From assembly GCF_000527035.1 (NCBI RefSeq), contig NZ_AZUK01000001.1, positions 2,306,001 through 2,370,000 of the forward strand: 64,000 bases of DNA. Reading direction: 5' to 3'. The notes below the pieces were generated by a model that ran no database searches, was not told the DNA's origin, and saw nothing but the letters and a program-made list of their open reading frames with translations. Origin of the DNA: Tolumonas lignilytica. GTDB taxonomy: Bacteria > Pseudomonadota > Gammaproteobacteria > Enterobacterales > Aeromonadaceae. The translations under genes and the position numbers were made by a program. Of this stretch, positions 23,926 to 32,377 are shown one piece after another (the stretch's first letter is position 1; each line of letters starts with the position of its first letter).

Positions 23926-24261
23926 CTATTTGGCCGCGAGAAAACCAATATCCTTTTCACGGTAGGGTTCTTCATCGTGATTGAATTCGCGACCAGGGAA
24001 AGCTGCCAGCGATTCGACCTGGTGCCAGGGAATAAAGATGGCGGCATGATAGACATCGGGTGGGGTGGAGAAGAAATCCTGTGTTTGCCACTGTTTGTTT
24101 TCAACCCAGATCCCAGCAGTTTCTACTCCAGCCAGCCGGACATAATATTGCGAGCAATCGGGATCATTCGGTTGAATCAATGATTCGGCGCTTTCTACAT
24201 AACCGGGCATGAATTTAACTAAAACAATTTTTCCGACGTATTCAATCATGAGATGACTCAT
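23926..24261 (-). CDS. Hypothetical protein downstream of the nir cluster
   Basis: A 111-residue protein that I do not recognise. The ATG at 24261 has an excellent ribosome site (AAGGAG, 7 bases away), which excludes the 14-codon longer frame. The protein is acidic and rich in aromatic residues with no signal or membrane segment. The segments GKIVLVKFMPGYVE, GIWVENKQW and AAIFIPWHQVESL suggest a small beta-barrel. It is on the same strand as nirC, 210 bases downstream with a hairpin between, so it is probably a separate unit. Confidence 0.6.
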   Translation of the reverse strand: MSHLMIEYVGKIVLVKFMPGYVESAESLIQPNDPDCSQYYVRLAGVETAGIWVENKQWQTQDFFSTPPDVYHAAIFIPWHQVESLAAFPGREFNHDEEPYREKDIGFLAAK

Positions 24262-24430
24262 AATCAACTCCTTGTTCTGTGAAGAATTTATTGTTCGCAA
24301 CACGCTGCTTCTTCTTCATCACAGACGACCGATGAGCCGGCAAGAACAGACAGTGGATCCTTCTTAAAGCATAGATTCAGTTAAGGCAGGCAGGTAAAAC
24401 ATTTTTCTGAAACAGAAAGAAGGGTCACAT

Positions 24431-24462
24431 TGTTGCTGCCATCCGCAGGCATGGCAGCAACA
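24431..24462 (-). terminator. 12-bp perfect inverted repeat downstream of nirC
   Basis: TGTTGCTGCCAT and ATGGCAGCAACA form a perfect stem with an 8-base loop, starting 10 bases past the nirC stop. On the minus strand it is not followed by a T-run, so it could stabilise mRNA ends rather than terminate. The rest of 24262-24430 shows nothing I can name. Confidence 0.5.
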
Positions 24463-24471
24463 GGGAATGGA

Positions 24472-25278
24472 TTAAACGCGTTGTGTACCGCGAACGGAAG
24501 CCGTGCTCGTTACCCGTTGCGCGTGTGGTGTGGCATACCAGTAGCCTAAGCCCATGAACAAGACGCCAGAGACTGTATTGCCCAGTGTCACCCACAACAG
24601 ATTGTGGCCGATGCCAGCAAGAGTGTAATCCGGGGTATGTGCACCAAACCAGGAAAGAGCAAACAGTGTCATATTGGCAATCGAGTGCTCGTAGCCGGAA
24701 GCGATAAAGGCCAGCAGACACCACCAGATCGCGATGAATTTCGCTGAACCTTCCACCCGCTGGCACATCCAGATAGCCAGACAAACCAGCCAGTTACACA
24801 GCATCCCTTTGGCAAACAGCACCAGTGCTGGCGCGGTGGTTTTCGCCAGTGCGACTTTATGCAGCAGACTACCGTCAACTGGCAAGATCTGTCCGCCACC
24901 GCCCAGATAGAACAGATAGGCTACGCCAATCGATCCGAGCAGATTGCCGGTCCAGGATTGCGCCAGAATACCGGTGGCTTGCAACGTATTCAGTTTGCCG
25001 GTTTTGACTCCAAAGGTTAGGAACATGGTATGGCCGGTGTAAAGTTCGGCGCCTGCAATGATCACCAGGGTCAGTGCAATCCCGAAGGTAGCGCCCATTA
25101 CCAATGGCCGGATGGTCGGCTCGACCAGATTTCCCAGCGTGAAAATCAAGATGATCCCGAGGCCGACATACGCGCCAGCCATCAAGCTGCCGATCCAGAA
25201 ACTCATCGGGTTGTTTCCCGCTGTATTCTTGATCCTTGCTGCCACGGCAGCGCATTTTTCGATGGTTTCCTGATACAT
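24472..25278 (-). CDS. nirC: Nitrite transporter NirC (formate/nitrite channel family)
   Basis: Inner membrane pentameric channel of the FNT family that passes nitrite in or out. The 268 residues have six hydrophobic segments and the FNT motifs: an AGAYVGLG stretch in helix 1, the broken-helix GAELYTGHTMF segment, KGMLCNWLVCLAIWM, and the central GYEHSIANM with its conserved His. It starts 2 bases after nirD. The neighbours nirB/nirD support nitrite rather than formate as substrate. Confidence 0.93.
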   Translation of the reverse strand: MYQETIEKCAAVAARIKNTAGNNPMSFWIGSLMAGAYVGLGIILIFTLGNLVEPTIRPLVMGATFGIALTLVIIAGAELYTGHTMFLTFGVKTGKLNTLQATGILAQSWTGNLLGSIGVAYLFYLGGGGQILPVDGSLLHKVALAKTTAPALVLFAKGMLCNWLVCLAIWMCQRVEGSAKFIAIWWCLLAFIASGYEHSIANMTLFALSWFGAHTPDYTLAGIGHNLLWVTLGNTVSGVLFMGLGYWYATPHAQRVTSTASVRGTQRV

Positions 25279-25280
25279 GA

Positions 25281-25610
25281 TTATCTCTCCTCCTTGAGTT
25301 CAATACGGCCGTTGGTGACTCGTGCGGCATAGGCTGCGACAGAAAACTCTGTGTTTTCCAGACAGGTGCCATCTTTCAGGTTGAAGTGCTGTTTTTTCAA
25401 CGGGCTGGCGACATACCATTCATTGTGCAAGTCGGCCAGAATACCGCGTGACAGGACGCTCGCCTGATAGAACGGGTCGATGTTATCAATGGCATACACC
25501 TGATCATTGTCCAGTGGGCGGAAAATAGCGACTTGCTGGCTGCCCAGCAACGCGCAGACGCCGGTGCCGGGAATGATGTCGCTCAGTGCACAGATATCGG
25601 TCCAGCTCAT
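25281..25610 (-). CDS. nirD: Nitrite reductase small subunit NirD
   Basis: Small subunit of the cytosolic NADH-dependent nitrite reductase. Its 109 residues form a Rieske-like beta fold (CALLGSQQVAIFR, YAIDNIDPFYQASVLSRG, SPLKKQHFNLKDG) but lack the Cys-His pairs of real Rieske clusters, as is normal for NirD. Its start overlaps the nirB end by 4 bases (ATGA). Confidence 0.95.
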   Translation of the reverse strand: MSWTDICALSDIIPGTGVCALLGSQQVAIFRPLDNDQVYAIDNIDPFYQASVLSRGILADLHNEWYVASPLKKQHFNLKDGTCLENTEFSVAAYAARVTNGRIELKEER

Positions 25611-28156
25611 ACCGGTTCCTCCAGAGAAATGTTGTAAGTCGGAATACGTTCTTCCGGTCTCGCCGGACGGTGCTGGTGGCGTTCAGATACAAATTGCACC
25701 AGTGGATCGGGCTGTGCGCTGTTGATGAAATGACGGAAGCGCAGCTGTTGTTGTTCGCTATCCAGCGTGTTTTTCCACTCGCAGCTATAAGTTTCACGGA
25801 TCGCCGCCATATCCTGTTCCAGCTCGGCACAAATATTGAGCTTGTCGTCAATGATGACGGATTTCAGATAGTCCAGACCGCCTTCAAGGTTGTCCAGCCA
25901 ACTGGCGGTACGCTGCAGCTTGTCAGCCGTACGCACATAGAACATCAGGAAGCGGTCGATGTAGCGGATCAGCGTTTTTTTATCCAGATCGGCGGCCAGC
26001 AAGTCGGCATGGCGTGGTTTCATCCCACCGTTACCGCAAACATACAGGTTCCAGCCCTTGTCGGTAGCAATCACTCCCACGTCTTTACCCTGTGCCTCGG
26101 CACATTCACGGGTACAGCCGGAAACACCAAATTTCATTTTGTGTGGCGAACGGATGCCTTTGTAGCGGTGTTCCAGTTCTACACCTAAACCTACACTGTC
26201 CTGCACACCGTAACGGCACCAGGTGCTGCCGACGCAGGTTTTCACCATCCGTAGTGACTTGGCATAGGCATGACCGGTTTCAAAGCCGGCATCGATCAGG
26301 CGTTCCCAGATGGTCGGCAGATCTTCTTTGCGGGCACCGAACAGACCGATACGTTGTGCACCGGTGATTTTGGTGTAGAGGTCATAATCACGGGCCACTT
26401 CGGCGACAGCCATCAGACCCTGCGGGGTGACTTCTCCGCCCGGCATCCGCGGGATCACGGAGTAAGTCCCGTCTTTTTGCATGTTACCCAGGAAGGTGTC
26501 GTTGGTGTCCTGCAGCGGGGTATGCGCCGCTTTCAGCACATATTCGCCCCAACAGGTAGCCAGAATAGAACCGATAGCCGGTTTACAGACATCGCAACCA
26601 TGCCCATGACCGTGTTTACTGATCACGTCATCAAAGGTTTTCAACTGGCCAATTTTGATCAGATGGAACAGTTCCTGACGGGAGAAGGCGAAATGTTCAC
26701 ACAGGTGATTTTTCACCTCAATGCCCTGACGGGACAACTCAGCATTCAGTACCTGAGTGATTAACGGTACGCAGCCACCGCAACCGGTACCAGCTTTGGT
26801 TTCGGCTTTGATCGCCGCGACGGTGTGACAACCGGCTGCCACCGCTTCTGCTATGCGGCCTTTGGTGACGTCAAAACAGGAGCAGATCTGGGCACTGTCT
26901 GGCAGGGCATCGACACCCAGTGTCGGTTTCGCACCGGCATGCGCAGGCAGAATCAACGTATCAGGATGTGCTGGCAGCGGCATATCGTTCAGTTTCATCT
27001 GCAGCAGATTGCCGTAATCGGTGGTATCACCGACCAGCACCGCACCCAGCAGTTTGGCGCCATCGCTGCTTACCACAATTTTCTTATAAACCCCGGCGGC
27101 ATCATCCTGATAGACATAGCTCAGGCTGTCCGGCGTGCGACCGTGCGCATCACCAATACTACCCACTTCGACGCCCAGTAGTTTCAGTTTGGCACTCATG
27201 TCGGCACCGGTGAACGCATTGGCATTGCCGAGCAGATGATCAACCGCGACCTGTGCCATTTTGTAGCCGGGCGCGACCAGACCGAAGAAGCGGCCATGCC
27301 ATGCAGCACATTCGCCAATGGCATAAATGTGTTCGTCGGCGGTGACGCAGTGATCATTAATTTCGACACCGCCACGTTCTGCAATCGGCAGATCACAGTA
27401 ACGGGCGAGGGTATCCTGCGGACGGATACCGGTTGAGAACACCACCAGATCCACATCCAGCACACTACCATCGGCAAAACGCATCTGGTGATGACCTTCT
27501 TTGCCCTGATAATGCGCGATTTCACGGGTATTTTTGCTGGTATGTACGGTAACGCCCATGCCTTCGATCTTACGGCGCAGCATTTCGCCGCCCTGACGAT
27601 CCAGTTGTTCCGCCATCAGCACCGGGGCGAACTCGATAACATGCGTTTCCAGACCCAGCGCTTTCAGGGCGCCGGCAGCTTCCAGACCCAGCAGACCACC
27701 ACCAACAACAACACCGTTTTTAGCCTGTTTGGCGGCTTCACGGATCGCTTTCAGATCTTCGATGGTGCGGTAAACAAAGCATTCATGGTGGGCGCTGCCA
27801 GCGATATTCGGTACCCAAGGGTAAGAGCCGGTAGCCAGCACCAAGGTGTCATAAGGCAATGTCTGACCTTTGTTGGTTTCGATAACCTGTTTGCTGCGAT
27901 CAATCAGTTTGACGGCTTCATTCAGGAATAGCTTGATACCGTGTTTTTCATAAAAACCCGGTTTAACCAGACTCAATTCGGCGGCGGTGTGATGCGAGAA
28001 ATAAGAAGAAAGATGCACGCGGTCATAGGCTTCGCGTGGTTCTGCACCAAAAACGGTGACTTCGTACTGACTGAGGTCGGCTTTATCCACCAGTTCTTCC
28101 AGATAGCGGTGACCAACCATGCCGTTACCAACAACGATAATCCGATGTTTCTGCAT
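25607..28156 (-). CDS. nirB: Nitrite reductase (NADH) large subunit NirB
   Basis: Reduces nitrite to ammonium in the cytosol with six electrons from NADH. The 849 residues carry, in order: an FAD/NAD pyridine-nucleotide oxidoreductase domain (GNGMVGHRYLEEL at the start, GGGLLGLEAAGAL near 155), a BFD-like 2Fe-2S domain (CSCFDVTKG, then GTGCGGCVP), and a sulfite/nitrite reductase domain with the 4Fe-4S/siroheme cysteines (CVGSTWC, then GCTRECAEA). It lies 3 bases after hcr, so it depends on the upstream hcp-hcr promoter. cysG for siroheme is absent here, unlike the E. coli nirBDC-cysG operon. Confidence 0.97.
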   Translation of the reverse strand: MQKHRIIVVGNGMVGHRYLEELVDKADLSQYEVTVFGAEPREAYDRVHLSSYFSHHTAAELSLVKPGFYEKHGIKLFLNEAVKLIDRSKQVIETNKGQTLPYDTLVLATGSYPWVPNIAGSAHHECFVYRTIEDLKAIREAAKQAKNGVVVGGGLLGLEAAGALKALGLETHVIEFAPVLMAEQLDRQGGEMLRRKIEGMGVTVHTSKNTREIAHYQGKEGHHQMRFADGSVLDVDLVVFSTGIRPQDTLARYCDLPIAERGGVEINDHCVTADEHIYAIGECAAWHGRFFGLVAPGYKMAQVAVDHLLGNANAFTGADMSAKLKLLGVEVGSIGDAHGRTPDSLSYVYQDDAAGVYKKIVVSSDGAKLLGAVLVGDTTDYGNLLQMKLNDMPLPAHPDTLILPAHAGAKPTLGVDALPDSAQICSCFDVTKGRIAEAVAAGCHTVAAIKAETKAGTGCGGCVPLITQVLNAELSRQGIEVKNHLCEHFAFSRQELFHLIKIGQLKTFDDVISKHGHGHGCDVCKPAIGSILATCWGEYVLKAAHTPLQDTNDTFLGNMQKDGTYSVIPRMPGGEVTPQGLMAVAEVARDYDLYTKITGAQRIGLFGARKEDLPTIWERLIDAGFETGHAYAKSLRMVKTCVGSTWCRYGVQDSVGLGVELEHRYKGIRSPHKMKFGVSGCTRECAEAQGKDVGVIATDKGWNLYVCGNGGMKPRHADLLAADLDKKTLIRYIDRFLMFYVRTADKLQRTASWLDNLEGGLDYLKSVIIDDKLNICAELEQDMAAIRETYSCEWKNTLDSEQQQLRFRHFINSAQPDPLVQFVSERHQHRPARPEERIPTYNISLEEPV

Positions 28157-28159
28157 AAA

Positions 28160-29209
28160 TTAAAGCTCCAGTTCCAAATCTGAGTTGGCGCGGCTGCTGC
28201 ACGCCAGAATATAACCTTGCAGCTTATCTTCTTCGGTGAGTGGGCCTGGCTGGGTACTGATATCTTCCACGCTGCCACTGATCACTTTGCACTTGCAGGA
28301 ACCGCAGATCCCGGAACGGCAGGCACCGATAATGGGTAATTGCAGTGACTCCAATGCTTCCAGCACGGTTTGTTGATTGCTGATGTCGCTGCTGGCACCA
28401 AAGCCCGGAACATCCAGGCGGAATTGCTGGTTGCTATCTGATGTCTCTGCAGTCAGCGGTGTGGCAGGTGCGAACGATTCCTTATGGCTGTTTGCCATCG
28501 GGAAGCCACGGTTTTGCAGCATTTGTTCTACAGCATCCATATACACTGACGGGCCACACATAAAGTTATGGCAATCAGTCAAGTCTGGAACCAAGGCTTG
28601 GAACAGTGCCGGATTCAAAAAGCCCTGATAGCAAGGGAAGGCATTCGTGACGGTATCGAGGATCAGGAACAATTTGAACTGTGGATGTGTCGCAGCCATG
28701 GTCATCAGTTCATCACGGAAGATGATGTCATCGGCATGACGCGCACTGTAGAGAAAGAAAATTTCGGTCGGATGTTTGTTATCCAGCAGCCAGCGTGCCA
28801 TCGACATCATCGGCGTAATGCCACTACCGGCACTGCACAACAGAATTTTGGCTGAACTATAATCGGCTGGCAGGAAGAATGCGCCAGTTGGATGCTGGGC
28901 CGTTAATGTGTCACCGGCATGGAAATGATCCAGCAGCCAGTTGGAAACCAGACCATTAGCAACCCGTTTAACCGTCACCGCTAAATCGGCTGAACGGCTG
29001 GGCGAGGAACAGAGTGAATAGGCACGGCTGTGCGGTTGCCCGTCAATATCCACTGTCAGTAGCAGAAATTGTCCCGGCTGATAAGAAACGGCCAGCGGTT
29101 GCAATGGACGAAAAACAAAGGTGGCGGCATCTGCTGTTTCCTGGCGACGCTCAATGCAACATAGCGGCTGGGCGCCTTGCCATACGGCAGGTTGAGAAGA
29201 AAAAGTCAT
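28160..29209 (-). CDS. hcr: NADH oxidoreductase Hcr, electron donor to Hcp
   Basis: Passes electrons from NADH to hybrid-cluster protein. I chose ATG 29209 because AGGAA lies 8 bases upstream; the open frame begins 19 codons earlier. Of about 349 residues, the first two thirds are a ferredoxin-NADP reductase fold (RAYSLCSSP for FAD, LLCSAGSGITPMMS for NADH, MCGPSVYMD). The last 90 are a plant-type 2Fe-2S ferredoxin domain (CRSGICGSCKCKV and a final Cys in ILACSS). It lies between hcp and nirB. Confidence 0.94.
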   Translation of the reverse strand: MTFSSQPAVWQGAQPLCCIERRQETADAATFVFRPLQPLAVSYQPGQFLLLTVDIDGQPHSRAYSLCSSPSRSADLAVTVKRVANGLVSNWLLDHFHAGDTLTAQHPTGAFFLPADYSSAKILLCSAGSGITPMMSMARWLLDNKHPTEIFFLYSARHADDIIFRDELMTMAATHPQFKLFLILDTVTNAFPCYQGFLNPALFQALVPDLTDCHNFMCGPSVYMDAVEQMLQNRGFPMANSHKESFAPATPLTAETSDSNQQFRLDVPGFGASSDISNQQTVLEALESLQLPIIGACRSGICGSCKCKVISGSVEDISTQPGPLTEEDKLQGYILACSSRANSDLELEL

Positions 29210-29244
29210 ACTGAATTCCTGTCGTGATATCAATCGGCCGGGCA

Positions 29245-29261
29245 GGGCTGCGGCGCAGCCC
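29245..29261 (-). repeat. GC-rich hairpin between hcp and hcr
   Basis: GGGCTGC and GCAGCCC with a 3-base loop, a very stable short stem in the 68-base hcp-hcr gap. No T-run follows. It could protect the hcp mRNA end or reduce read-through into hcr-nirBDC. Confidence 0.5.
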
Positions 29262-29277
29262 CGCACACGGTTTATTC

Positions 29278-30939
29278 TCAGGCGGCGAGAATATCTTTCA
29301 GATCCTGTTCCACTGTGGTGATGGTTTTCAGATCGAAGTTTTCACTCAGGAAGTTCAGCAGGTTTGGTGTCAGGAAGCCCGGTACAGACGGGCCGACACG
29401 AATGCCTTTAATGCCCAGCGACAGCAGCGTCAGCAGGATCACAATGGCTTTCTGTTCAAACCAAGACAGCACCAGCGACAGCGGCAGATCGTTCACACCA
29501 CAACCAAACGCGTCGGCCAGCGCCAGCGCCAGCTGAATAGCAGAATAGGCATCGTTACACTGGCCGACGTCGAGCAAGCGTGGAATACCGTTGATGTCAC
29601 CGAATTCCAGATCGTTGAATTTGAATTTGCCACATGCCAGCGTCAGGATCAGGCTGTCTTGCGGTACGGCTTTCGCCATTTCGGTGTAGTAGCCACGCTC
29701 CTGCTTATCACCATCACAACCCCCGATCAGGAAGAAGTGTTTGATGTTGCCGGCTTTCACCTGATCGATCACCGCCGGAGCTGCAGCCATCAGCGCATTG
29801 CGGGCAAAACCGGTCATGGTGTAGTGCGGAATTTCATCGTAAGGGAAACCTTCCAGTGACTCAGCCTTCGCAATGACGGCACTGAAATCATCACCTTCCA
29901 GATGCGTCACACCCGGCCAGCCGACGATGCTGCGAGTAAAGATACGGTCAGCATATTTACCGACATTCGGGTTGATGATGCAGTTGGAGGTCATCACGAC
30001 AGCGCCTGGGAATGCGGCAAACTCTTTCTGCTGGTTCTGCCAGGCGGAACCGTAGTTACCGACCAGATGCGGGTATTTCTTCAGCAGTGGGTAAGCATGT
30101 GCTGGCAGCATTTCACCGTGCGTATACACGTTGATGTTTTTGCCTTCGGTCTGTTGCAGAATTTTTTCAAGATCGTGCAGGTCATGGCCGGAAACCAGAA
30201 TGGCTTTACCTGCAATCGGCTTCATGTTCACTTTGGTTGGCTCAGGGTGACCGAAGGTTTCGGTTTCGCCTTTATCCAGCATCGCCATGACTTTGAAGTT
30301 CATCTGACCGATCTGCATTGCACAATCCAGCAGCGGTTGCATTTCGGTAGGCTCTGTACCGAGGAAGGCCATGATTTGGTGATATTCAGCACCGATCTCA
30401 TCTTCTTGTTGACCCAATACGCGGGCATGTTCCATGTAAGCCGCAGCCCCTTTCAGTCCATACAGACACAGCAGACGCAGACCCAGAATATCTTCGCCAA
30501 TCGCCGCTTTATCACGGTTTACTGCCGCATTCGGTGCCCATGCCAGCAGCTCGGCTTTATCAGCCGTCATGATCAGGGCTGCAGGGCCGGTTGCCACTTC
30601 CGGTGCTTTACCTGCCAACAGACAGGCCGCTTCATAGCGGGATTTCAGTGAATCACGATTCTGTTGGGCTTCATTGATGAAGGCAATGATGCGGGCCGCA
30701 TCGAAGTTCACGTTGGTCAGCGTAGAAAACAGTGCCTGACAGACATAGGCATCAATGTCACGATCAACGATGCCAACAGAGCGGGCCTTCAGGGCATAGT
30801 CAGAAACACCCTGCAGCAGATAAATCAGCACATCCTGTAAGTCAGAGACTTCTGCAGTCTTACCACACATGCCCATGGTGTAGCTGCAACCTTTAGCAGC
30901 CGGAGTAGAGATAGTCTGTTCACACTGAATACAAAACAT
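29278..30939 (-). CDS. hcp: Hybrid-cluster protein Hcp (NO/hydroxylamine reductase)
   Basis: Fe-S-O cluster enzyme. In E. coli it acts as a high-affinity NO reductase and protein S-nitrosylase; older work calls it hydroxylamine reductase. The 553 residues begin with four Cys (3, 6, 18, 25), the CX2CX11CX6C spacing of the class with a 2Fe-2S cluster. The hybrid-cluster ligands lie in [44 protein letters not shown] and [12 protein letters not shown] good ribosome site (AAGGAACAACC) precedes the ATG. It is the first gene of hcp-hcr-nirB-nirD-nirC. Confidence 0.97.
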
Positions 30940-30981
30940 TGGTTGTTCCTTGCGTTGATTAGCCAGTATGAGAATAGCTAT

Positions 30982-30998
30982 ATCAAGGGGTGTGCCAA
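30982..30998 (-). promoter_or_regulatory. Sigma54-type -24/-12 promoter of hcp
   Basis: On the minus strand the sequence is TTGGCACACCCCTTGAT. The -24 box (TTGGCAC) is perfect and the spacing is right. The -12 box reads TTGAT instead of TTGCT, one mismatch. Expected start about 30971, giving a 32-base leader to hcp. Confidence 0.65.
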
Positions 30999-31051
30999 TA
31001 TTTTATATTATTGATTAATAATGGATTTGTTGGTTTGTGCTTATACTTGAA

Positions 31052-31107
31052 GTCAAAAAGACACAGTGTTTTTTCTGTGTCTTTTTGACCTTATGTGTCT
31101 TTTTAAC
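31052..31107. promoter_or_regulatory. Three NorR-like GT-N7-AC boxes upstream of hcp
   Basis: GTCAAAAAGAC (31052-31062), GTCTTTTTGAC (31079-31089) and GTCTTTTTAAC (31097-31107) each fit the GT-N7-AC core bound by NorR. Their centres lie about 86, 113 and 131 bases upstream of the predicted sigma54 start, a normal enhancer range. The first two also form a perfect 15-bp inverted repeat (31052-31066 with 31075-31089) that could double as the envC terminator. Confidence 0.5.
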
Positions 31108-31111
31108 TCGG

Positions 31112-32344
31112 CTATTTGCCCAGCAATAAAAGTGGATTGACGGGCTTGCCAGCCTTGCGAATTTCAAAATACACACCGGTTGCACCAGCACTACCACTGT
31201 TGCCGGCACTGGCAATCACTTCGCCACTGTTGACGTGCTGGCCGACGTGTTTGTTCAAATTCTGGTTATTACCATACAGACTTAAGTATCCGCGACCATG
31301 ATCGATCACCAATACATTGCCAAAACCATCCAGCCAGTCAGCAAACACCACATCCCCGCTGCCAGCCGCTTTAACCGGTGTACCGCTTCCGGTCTTGATC
31401 AGAATACCTTTCCAGGCTACCTCACCGGTACGGGTCTCTCCGAATTTACGGATCACCGGTCCATGCACCGGCCAGCTCATGCGACCGGATTTACCCAGTC
31501 CTTGCAGATCGTTTTTCGCCAAACGGGCAGCTTCCTTACGGGCAGCCGCTTCTTGCGACTTGCCTTCCTGCCGGGCTTTTTCCCGCGCTTTGGCTAAGGC
31601 TTCCTCTTTCTGACGGCGTCGCTCTTCTTCCATGCGTTTACGCTGTTCTTCAATTTTCTGCAGCATGGCTTTTTCTGCCTGTTGCAGCTTGGTCAGTTGC
31701 TGCTGATCCGATTGCAGCGATTCGTGCATTTCCTGGGCTGTTTTTTCCCGTTGCTGCTGTTTTTGCTGCAAAGACTGTTGATCCAGCTTCTGATCATCAA
31801 TCAGCGCCCGCAGTTCCTGACTGCTTTCACTGGTGTCTTGCTTGTTCTGGAGTAATTCCGCTTTCGTTGCATCCAGCTGTTTCAGAACGTGTAAACGTGC
31901 CTGATTCATATAACCGTAATAGTCCATGGTGCGACCCACGGCAGCCGGATCTTGCTGATTGAGTAAGAGTTTCAGATAGTCATGCTGGCCCATTCGATAG
32001 GCTTCATCGAATTGTTCGGCAAGCAAATGCTTTTGCTGGCGCGACTGCGCTTCCAGTTTGGCCCGCTGCGCATCCAGTTGTTGTAGCTTGTTTCTGACTT
32101 TATTGAGTCTGCTTTGGGAGTATTGTAATTTTTGATTAGCCGCAGCAATGGCTTCTTCATCCGCTTTAAGTTGCTGTTGCAATGAAGCCAGGTCTTTTTT
32201 CTGAACCTGTATAGCTTGCTGTTTTTGCTGGATTTGTTCTCGTACGCTAGATAGCGAGGAGTTTACATTTTTTGTATCTTCCGCCTGTATGGCGGCGCTA
32301 AAAAACAACGCGCCGACCAACAGGCCGACGCGATTGTATTTCAT
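31112..32344 (-). CDS. envC: EnvC, activator of septal murein amidases
   Basis: Periplasmic division protein that activates AmiA/AmiB under FtsEX control. Start ATG 32344 gives a signal peptide (MKYNRVGLLVGALFFSAAIQA); the open frame begins eight codons upstream. About 410 residues: a long coiled coil rich in Gln/Lys/Glu, then a C-terminal LytM (M23) domain from about residue 290. The zinc ligands are missing, as in EnvC: the HxxxD site reads WKGILI and the HxH site reads YFEIRK. It is 33 bases downstream of gpmI, as in E. coli. Confidence 0.93.
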   Translation of the reverse strand: MKYNRVGLLVGALFFSAAIQAEDTKNVNSSLSSVREQIQQKQQAIQVQKKDLASLQQQLKADEEAIAAANQKLQYSQSRLNKVRNKLQQLDAQRAKLEAQSRQQKHLLAEQFDEAYRMGQHDYLKLLLNQQDPAAVGRTMDYYGYMNQARLHVLKQLDATKAELLQNKQDTSESSQELRALIDDQKLDQQSLQQKQQQREKTAQEMHESLQSDQQQLTKLQQAEKAMLQKIEEQRKRMEEERRRQKEEALAKAREKARQEGKSQEAAARKEAARLAKNDLQGLGKSGRMSWPVHGPVIRKFGETRTGEVAWKGILIKTGSGTPVKAAGSGDVVFADWLDGFGNVLVIDHGRGYLSLYGNNQNLNKHVGQHVNSGEVIASAGNSGSAGATGVYFEIRKAGKPVNPLLLLGK

Positions 32345-32377
32345 AGGAAACAACTGCTCTGCCCTCATGGGCGAGAA

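Follow-up and report, generated by a model that had tools for sequence, protein, structure and literature searches.

A NorR-like, sigma54-type control region before hcp-hcr-nirBDC in Tolumonas lignilytica, two of whose boxes double as a terminator-like hairpin

The hcp-hcr-nirBDC genes of T. lignilytica very probably (we put the probability at about 0.85) form an NO-induced operon, in which a NorR of the norR1 type acting at three upstream boxes drives a sigma54 promoter, the two boxes nearer the promoter also folding as a terminator-like hairpin. The window, that is, the whole stretch of 64,000 nucleotides that was analysed, contains the five genes together with the envC gene behind which they lie. 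For NorR binding, the response to NO, co-transcription, termination and the roles of the enzymes, we infer the following course of events. Under NO, the NorR encoded by norR1, which is of the hcp-linked type, would assemble on the boxes at −131, −113 and −86 and would open, by ATP hydrolysis, the sigma54 holoenzyme held at the −24/−12 element, leading to transcription of hcp-hcr-nirBDC. Hcp would remove NO, while NirC would import nitrite and NirBD would reduce it to ammonia. Boxes 2 and 3, because they are inverted copies of each other, would give the envC transcript a terminator-like hairpin, which should bar read-through into an operon that is to stay off when NO is absent. Such an overlap of enhancer sites with a terminator-like hairpin would, if true, be an unusual economy of regulatory DNA.

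On the minus strand, the stop codon of envC is followed after 4 bp by the three GT-N7-AC boxes, an A/T-rich linker, the element TTGGCACACCCCTTGAT and, 42 bp further on, hcp. The features of this region are given below, where the counts refer to a set of 12 loci, composed of 10 from the same genus (T. lignilytica included) and 2 from the sister genus g5.

31112..32368, minus strand: envC, murein hydrolase activator, the co-directional upstream neighbour (NF008644, 299 bits, cut-off 270)
31097..31107, minus strand: box 1, GTTAAAAAGAC, distal NorR-like site, outside the hairpin; core present in 12/12 loci, always 18 bp from box 2
31079..31089, minus strand: box 2, GTCAAAAAGAC, middle NorR-like site, part of the 5' arm of the hairpin; core present in 12/12 loci
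31052..31062, minus strand: box 3, GTCTTTTTGAC, proximal NorR-like site, part of the 3' arm of the hairpin; GT-N7-AC core intact in 9/12 loci
31050..31091, minus strand: 17-bp perfect inverted repeat comprising boxes 2 and 3, with an 8-nt loop and a T5 run in the 3' arm (−24 kcal/mol, z = −6.3)
30982..30998, minus strand: sigma54-type promoter element TTGGCACACCCCTTGAT, with the −24 GG at 30996-30995 and the −12 box TTGAT
30970..30973 (about 30971), minus strand: expected sigma54 transcription start, from the spacing to the −12 element

An earlier note on this DNA had described a sigma54-like element on the minus strand with one mismatch in the −12 box, and three GT-N7-AC boxes at about −86, −113 and −131. 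Both descriptions are borne out by direct reading of the sequence: bases 30997-30982 of TTGGCACACCCCTTGAT differ from TGGCACNNNNNTTGCW at one position, and the box centres fall at −86, −113 and −131 if +1 is taken at about 30971, which places them 105, 87 and 60 bp from the sigma54 element. The reading of the region as a NorR/sigma54 promoter, which the note had drawn from these elements, is well supported on inferential grounds by the conservation of the sites, their geometry and the presence of norR and rpoN in the genome. It is amended in three respects: the core of box 3 is gone in 3/12 loci; boxes 2 and 3 double as a terminator-like hairpin, a point that the note had missed; and the GAT of the −12 box is a conserved feature (see below).

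Taken singly, the motifs are uninformative. The sigma54 pattern, with up to two mismatches, has 59 matches in the window versus 53 expected, so that the element alone proves nothing, and single boxes of the form GTC-N5-RAC are likewise at the chance level (58 matches versus 50 expected). Single-motif statistics were dropped as evidence, since neither motif exceeds chance. The combined architecture of boxes and sigma54 element, however, is not due to chance. It is matched once in the window. With GTY-N5-RAC boxes it is found 0 times in 48.4 Mb of simulated order-1 Markov sequence, and with any GT-N7-AC boxes the same amount of simulated sequence yields 2 matches at a sigma54 score of at least 10 and 3 at a score of at least 9. 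The box pair with 18-bp spacing is present at two places in the 3.63-Mb genome (hcp and one other), while a reversed control pattern is found 13 times per strand. At least 161 wide sigma54-pattern matches were obtained in the T. lignilytica genome, 30 of which were made into loci, and among up to 55 stretches of this genome (about 295 kb, counting overlaps) the three-box layout is seen only at hcp and ytfE. The genome may hold further NorR targets beyond these two. A separate observation from the same genome is a long tandem repeat at G000:C1:1469439-1474350, where a TGGCACCCTGAGTGCA-like sequence recurs at multiples of 306 bp; it perhaps belongs to a repetitive surface protein.

Conservation singles out the same elements. 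Hcp matches, some of them partial or distant, were obtained in 30/61 genomes searched, among them 10/11 of the genus (T. lignilytica counted) and 2/3 of g5, and the upstream stretch was read for 27 of the 30 hcp loci. Boxes 1 and 2 with their exact 18-bp spacing, the −24 GG and the −12 TTG are kept in 12/12 loci of the set, while in the three loci where the core of box 3 is lost (GTCTTTTTATC), 13-14 of the 17 hairpin pairs remain. Over the 12 loci, 19/21 columns of the box cores and the sigma54 element are invariant (11/12 and 8/9, respectively), compared to 10/102 of the other columns between box 1 and the −12 box. The nine sigma54 columns scored include TGGCA and TTG, which are invariant throughout, and a sixth base, C, which varies. 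The −12 box reads TTGAT in 9/10 genus members, TTGAC in the remaining one and TTGTA in both g5 loci, the full consensus TTGCW being seen in none of the 12. The GAT of the T. lignilytica −12 box is thus no slip, as it is conserved in 9/10 genus members.

We consider it extremely unlikely that the −24/−12-like sequence is instead a promoter of the sigma70 type and that some unrelated factor binds the boxes. A sigma70-like match, TTGGCA-16-TATTCT, does overlap the sigma54 element and scores 9 of 12, such matches being no commoner in the sequence than in shuffles (7 versus 10.7), and the departure of the −12 box from the consensus would also fit. The −10 part of this match, however, is not conserved by eye, whereas the sigma54 GG and TTG are invariant, and TTGAT or TGTA is found at the −12 position of other promoters with NorR-like boxes (L184, L171, L094). 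A somewhat different alternative, very unlikely as well, is that the repeats are merely the intrinsic terminator of envC, the GT-N7-AC fit being a by-product of a hairpin with A/T tracts and hcp being transcribed from another promoter. This would explain why boxes 2 and 3 make up a 17-bp perfect hairpin with T5 after GACACAG/CTGTGTC, and why the hairpin mostly stays in the three loci without box 3. It would not explain the conservation of box 1, which lies outside the hairpin and yet is kept in 12/12 loci at exactly 18 bp, nor that of the sigma54 element. In addition, in g5 the boxes are present with no envC upstream and with T-runs that reach 3 and 1 at most, and a locus with norR beside hcp (L053) shows the same geometry.

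Two other regulators were considered for hcp and rejected. For FNR, the sole match to TTGATNNNNATCAA (up to two mismatches) in 24001-31400 sits inside nirB, at 25751, and none of the 12 loci of the genus and g5 showed an FNR palindrome before hcp; one is present there in 11/11 loci of g4, a genus that we take to be Aeromonas because of the similarity of named loci. For NsrR, the strict motif ATGNAT-N5-ATNCAT, which alone was scored, is absent upstream of hcp in 27 loci.

Under the NorR/sigma54 reading, the hairpin would be a second function of the proximal boxes. On the envC strand, the stop codon of envC is followed about 50 bp later by the T5 run, which comes after the GACACAG/CTGTGTC part, and by its sequence the structure resembles an intrinsic terminator of envC. 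A simple terminator scan lists the hairpin on the plus strand only, with a scan total of 16 that is near that of shuffles (13.2). Over the 12 loci, 92.5% of the cells pair and 9/17 pairs show changes on both sides. None of the pairing measures is equalled by any of 500 shuffles or by slid versions, where the structure counted comes from one aligned sequence, a choice that favours it over the slid versions. The 3' arm has T5 in 9/10 genus members and T4 in one. Outside the genus most of the hairpins have no T-run, which counts against a general terminator role.

The orientation of the proximal boxes was then compared over a wider set of hcp promoters, in which 33/91 loci pass a filter for an intact box 3 and for GG and T at set −24/−12 positions; the filter removes Paludibacterium L053 and the three loci that lack box 3, and L050/L051, which duplicate L031/L030, were not counted. 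The inverted identity of the two boxes is higher than the direct one in 28 promoters, lower in 1 and equal in 4; outside the genus and g5 (n = 24) the corresponding numbers are 19, 1 and 4. Over the 13 non-core positions, the mean inverted identity is 9.88 compared to 6.56 for shuffled boxes in the 33 promoters, and 9.54 compared to 7.88 in the 24 (0 of 5000 shuffles in both cases), while the direct identity is not raised over the shuffle at the filtered hcp promoters. Swapping boxes between disjoint nearest relatives, with near-duplicate loci dropped so that 15 pairs are left, shows the inverted match to be better unswapped in 10 pairs, worse in 1 and equal in 4; for the direct match, 3 are better unswapped, 8 worse and 4 equal.

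A comparable set of other NorR promoters was obtained from 39 norR loci, which reduce to 23 distinct promoters whose targets are not all identified. Here, the inverted identity is above the direct one in 13, below in 7 and equal in 3, and both are raised over the shuffle (inverted 7.83 versus 6.10, direct 7.17 versus 5.78, 0 of 5000 each). The hcp promoters and the others thus differ in degree, since the latter also show some inverted likeness. The longest upstream frame, picked mechanically, is a gene in 30/33 hcp loci and is always co-directional, unlike E. coli norV and the ytfE of the genus, which face norR. We suggest, with some reserve and at less than even odds, that the proximal boxes at hcp are kept inverted by compensatory change, serving both as NorR enhancer and as a transcript hairpin that would insulate an NO-only operon from a co-directional upstream gene. 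The main alternative is a non-functional one, namely that template-switch correction of imperfect palindromes produces the inverted boxes.

Downstream of the promoter, the genes on the minus strand are as follows.

29278..30939, minus strand: hcp, hydroxylamine reductase / hybrid cluster protein, 553 aa (NF003658, 810 bits, cut-off 367)
28160..29209, minus strand: hcr-like NADH oxidoreductase; all NCBIfam matches below cut-off (GbcB NF058606, 282/500 bits; Hcr NF007964, 231/383)
25607..28156, minus strand: nirB, NADH-dependent nitrite reductase large subunit (NF011565, 1629 bits, cut-off 883)
25281..25610, minus strand: nirD, nitrite reductase small subunit (NF007066, 171 bits, cut-off 135)
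24472..25278, minus strand: nirC, nitrite transporter (NF008595, 483 bits, cut-off 293)

The listed start of hcr, GTG at 29266, is probably wrong, and we prefer the ATG at 29209, which is preceded by AGGAA resembling a ribosome site. From hcr to nirC the genes are nearly contiguous, with gaps of 3 and 2 bp and one overlap. Between hcp and hcr there is a gap of 68 bp (29210-29277, minus strand) with GGGGCTGCGCCGCAGCCC, a G+C-rich hairpin-forming stretch without a T-run. This is a possible processing or attenuation point inside the operon, and expression downstream of it may be damped. The order hcp-hcr-nirB-nirD-nirC is found in 10/10 loci whose contig reaches nirB, the window included, two further contigs ending inside hcr. 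Among 80 named hcp loci, a few of which have less than 3 kb downstream and some of which gave no hcr, the two g5 assemblies are the only ones with nirB after hcr.

The genome searches gave no match for narG or nrfA, and a NapA-like match below cut-off lies beside a second nirB, moaA, moeA, moeB and a NarK-type transporter, in a cluster that looks assimilatory. This suggests that the NirBDC of the window plausibly serves nitrite and NO clearance rather than respiration. In the second nirB cluster (G000:C1:352001-371000, L209), a kinase-like protein of 575 aa is encoded between nirB and the NarK-type transporter. In E. coli, the genes of NirBD and Hcp belong to separate, differently regulated operons; in T. 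lignilytica, they seem to share a single operon under NO control. An excerpt of a study on E. coli (PMC9052748) calls Hcp a high-affinity NO reductase and ascribes the reduction of nitrite to ammonia to NirB, and in excerpts of another NirBD and Hcp exert non-redundant control of the NO level during nitrate respiration (PMC6805990). PMC6755692, which also came up, was set aside, as the Hcp in the excerpt concerned is the type VI secretion protein and not the hybrid cluster protein.

According to the earlier note, the absence of norR from the genome would refute NorR control. In the T. lignilytica genome, however, two norR genes score over the curated cut-off, and there is one rpoN. Two norR genes are present in 11/11 genomes of the genus, and in g5 there are two in G014, one partial in G020 and none in G017 (71% complete), where hcp was not found either. 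The gene of interest here is listed below.

G000:C1:1275784-1277319 (L018:9769-11337): norR1, 1.06 Mb from hcp

In T. lignilytica norR is thus not next to hcp, whereas the distance between norR1 and hcp in g5 is about 2.3 kb (L191) and about 5.8 kb (L190). The T. lignilytica norR1 adjoins sanA and lipA, as it does in 9/9 genus relatives checked and in G014; the G020 stretch showed neither of these two genes. As the simplest history we envisage that hcp-hcr-nirBDC, with its control region, came to sit behind envC in the genus while norR1 kept its place by lipA. The norR1 copy of G020 (L191:4130-5728) gives a family match only for residues 6-445 of 512, its frame ending without the usual DNA-binding end, and may be broken or misassembled.

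Kinship and the form of the boxes point to the NorR of norR1 as the one acting at hcp. To 20 hcp-linked NorRs of other genera, norR1 has an identity of 50.6-59.1%, compared to 42.7-47.2% for norR2 and 46.0-49.6% for E. coli NorR, each of the 20 being nearer to norR1. In a tree made by a quick method, with long branches flagged and with L191, L105, L184, L166, L167 and the double L182 left out, a group with SH-aLRT support of 99 joins the 10 norR1 rows of the genus to 20 hcp-linked ones, of which 19 are from other genera and one is from G014, and norR2 lies outside it. The norR1 product is thereby grouped with NorRs encoded beside hcp, that is, in the hcp-linked group (Rodionov's NorR2). The positions R75, D96, D99, C113 and D131 (E. 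coli numbering), some of which we take to bind the sensing iron, are invariant in 6/6 aligned NorRs, those of norR1 and norR2 included. In the sigma54-contact loop, five of the six aligned NorRs, that of norR1 among them, have GAFTGA, and the norR2 product (L019:13531-15078) has GAFSGA.

It is unlikely, although somewhat less so than the alternatives weighed above, that the promoter is NorR-driven but with the ytfE-linked norR2 product as activator, or with both NorRs sharing it. In favour of this, the genome encodes both proteins and the two kinds of boxes share the GT-N7-AC core. The ytfE boxes, however, are of the form GGT-N7-ACC in 10/10 loci, which the hcp boxes mostly are not, and the hcp-linked NorRs of other genera group with norR1. 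With norR1 as the regulator of hcp, the NO regulon seems to be re-partitioned, with NsrR acting on norVW, NorR2 on ytfE-hmp and NorR1 on hcp-hcr-nirBDC. The norVW genes (L019:2813-5383 and upstream; G000:C1 386,813-389,733) are without NorR boxes. By eye, an NsrR-like palindrome of the ATGCAT type lies upstream of them, also in the 5 genus relatives whose norV upstream region was read, and an NsrR-like gene (155.6 bits, cut-off 182) lies nearby.

The closest comparison within the genome is norR2-ytfE-hmp, where a sigma54 element is likewise preceded by three boxes, at spacings of 19 and 25 bp, and norR is divergent. It differs in having GGT-N7-ACC boxes, another NorR and an FNR-like site, and in the position of box 3, at 48 bp from the element compared to 60 bp at hcp; its boxes 2 and 3 match 10/17 inverted and 14/17 direct. 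All three GGT-N7-ACC boxes are found in each of the 10 ytfE loci, 6 of which have one further GT-N7-AC match. In the norR2-ytfE gap (L019:15078-15240), the FNR-like palindrome TTGATCGAAATCAA is placed downstream of the sigma54 element and ahead of ytfE, which suggests additional control by oxygen.

At E. coli norVW, three enhancer sites are essential, as stated in an excerpt of PMC2941729 citing Tucker et al. 2010. The distances from the norVW boxes to the downstream sigma54 element, 106, 85 and 61 bp, are very similar to the 105, 87 and 60 bp of T. lignilytica hcp, and the five sensing-domain positions checked are kept. The E. coli system differs in its target genes, in its divergent norR and in its −12 box, CTGCA, and boxes 2 and 3 have an inverted match of 11/17 there, compared to 15/17 at T. 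lignilytica hcp. In the norR-hcp locus of Paludibacterium (L053), where norR adjoins hcp, the boxes are 105, 86 and 62 bp before the element and the −12 box is TCGCA.

A 2005 study by Rodionov et al. (PMC1274295) predicted that NorR controls hcp in Vibrionales. As far as the excerpts of that paper go, the NorR2-hcp-hcr unit has, like that of T. lignilytica, tandem GT-N7-AC sites and a sigma54 promoter before hcp-hcr, and norR1 belongs to the same NorR group as its activator. The Vibrionales have two sites of the form GATGT-N7-ACATC, whereas T. lignilytica has three GTY-N5-RAC sites without that flank; and norR, which is upstream of hcp in the former, lies elsewhere in the latter, where nirBDC is added to the operon. 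The matches listed from the open-access literature, seen as excerpts and with subscription journals outside their coverage, include no report of NorR control of nirBDC. Compared with the Vibrionales system, the extension of the NorR-hcp unit by nirBDC and the separation of its regulator look new.
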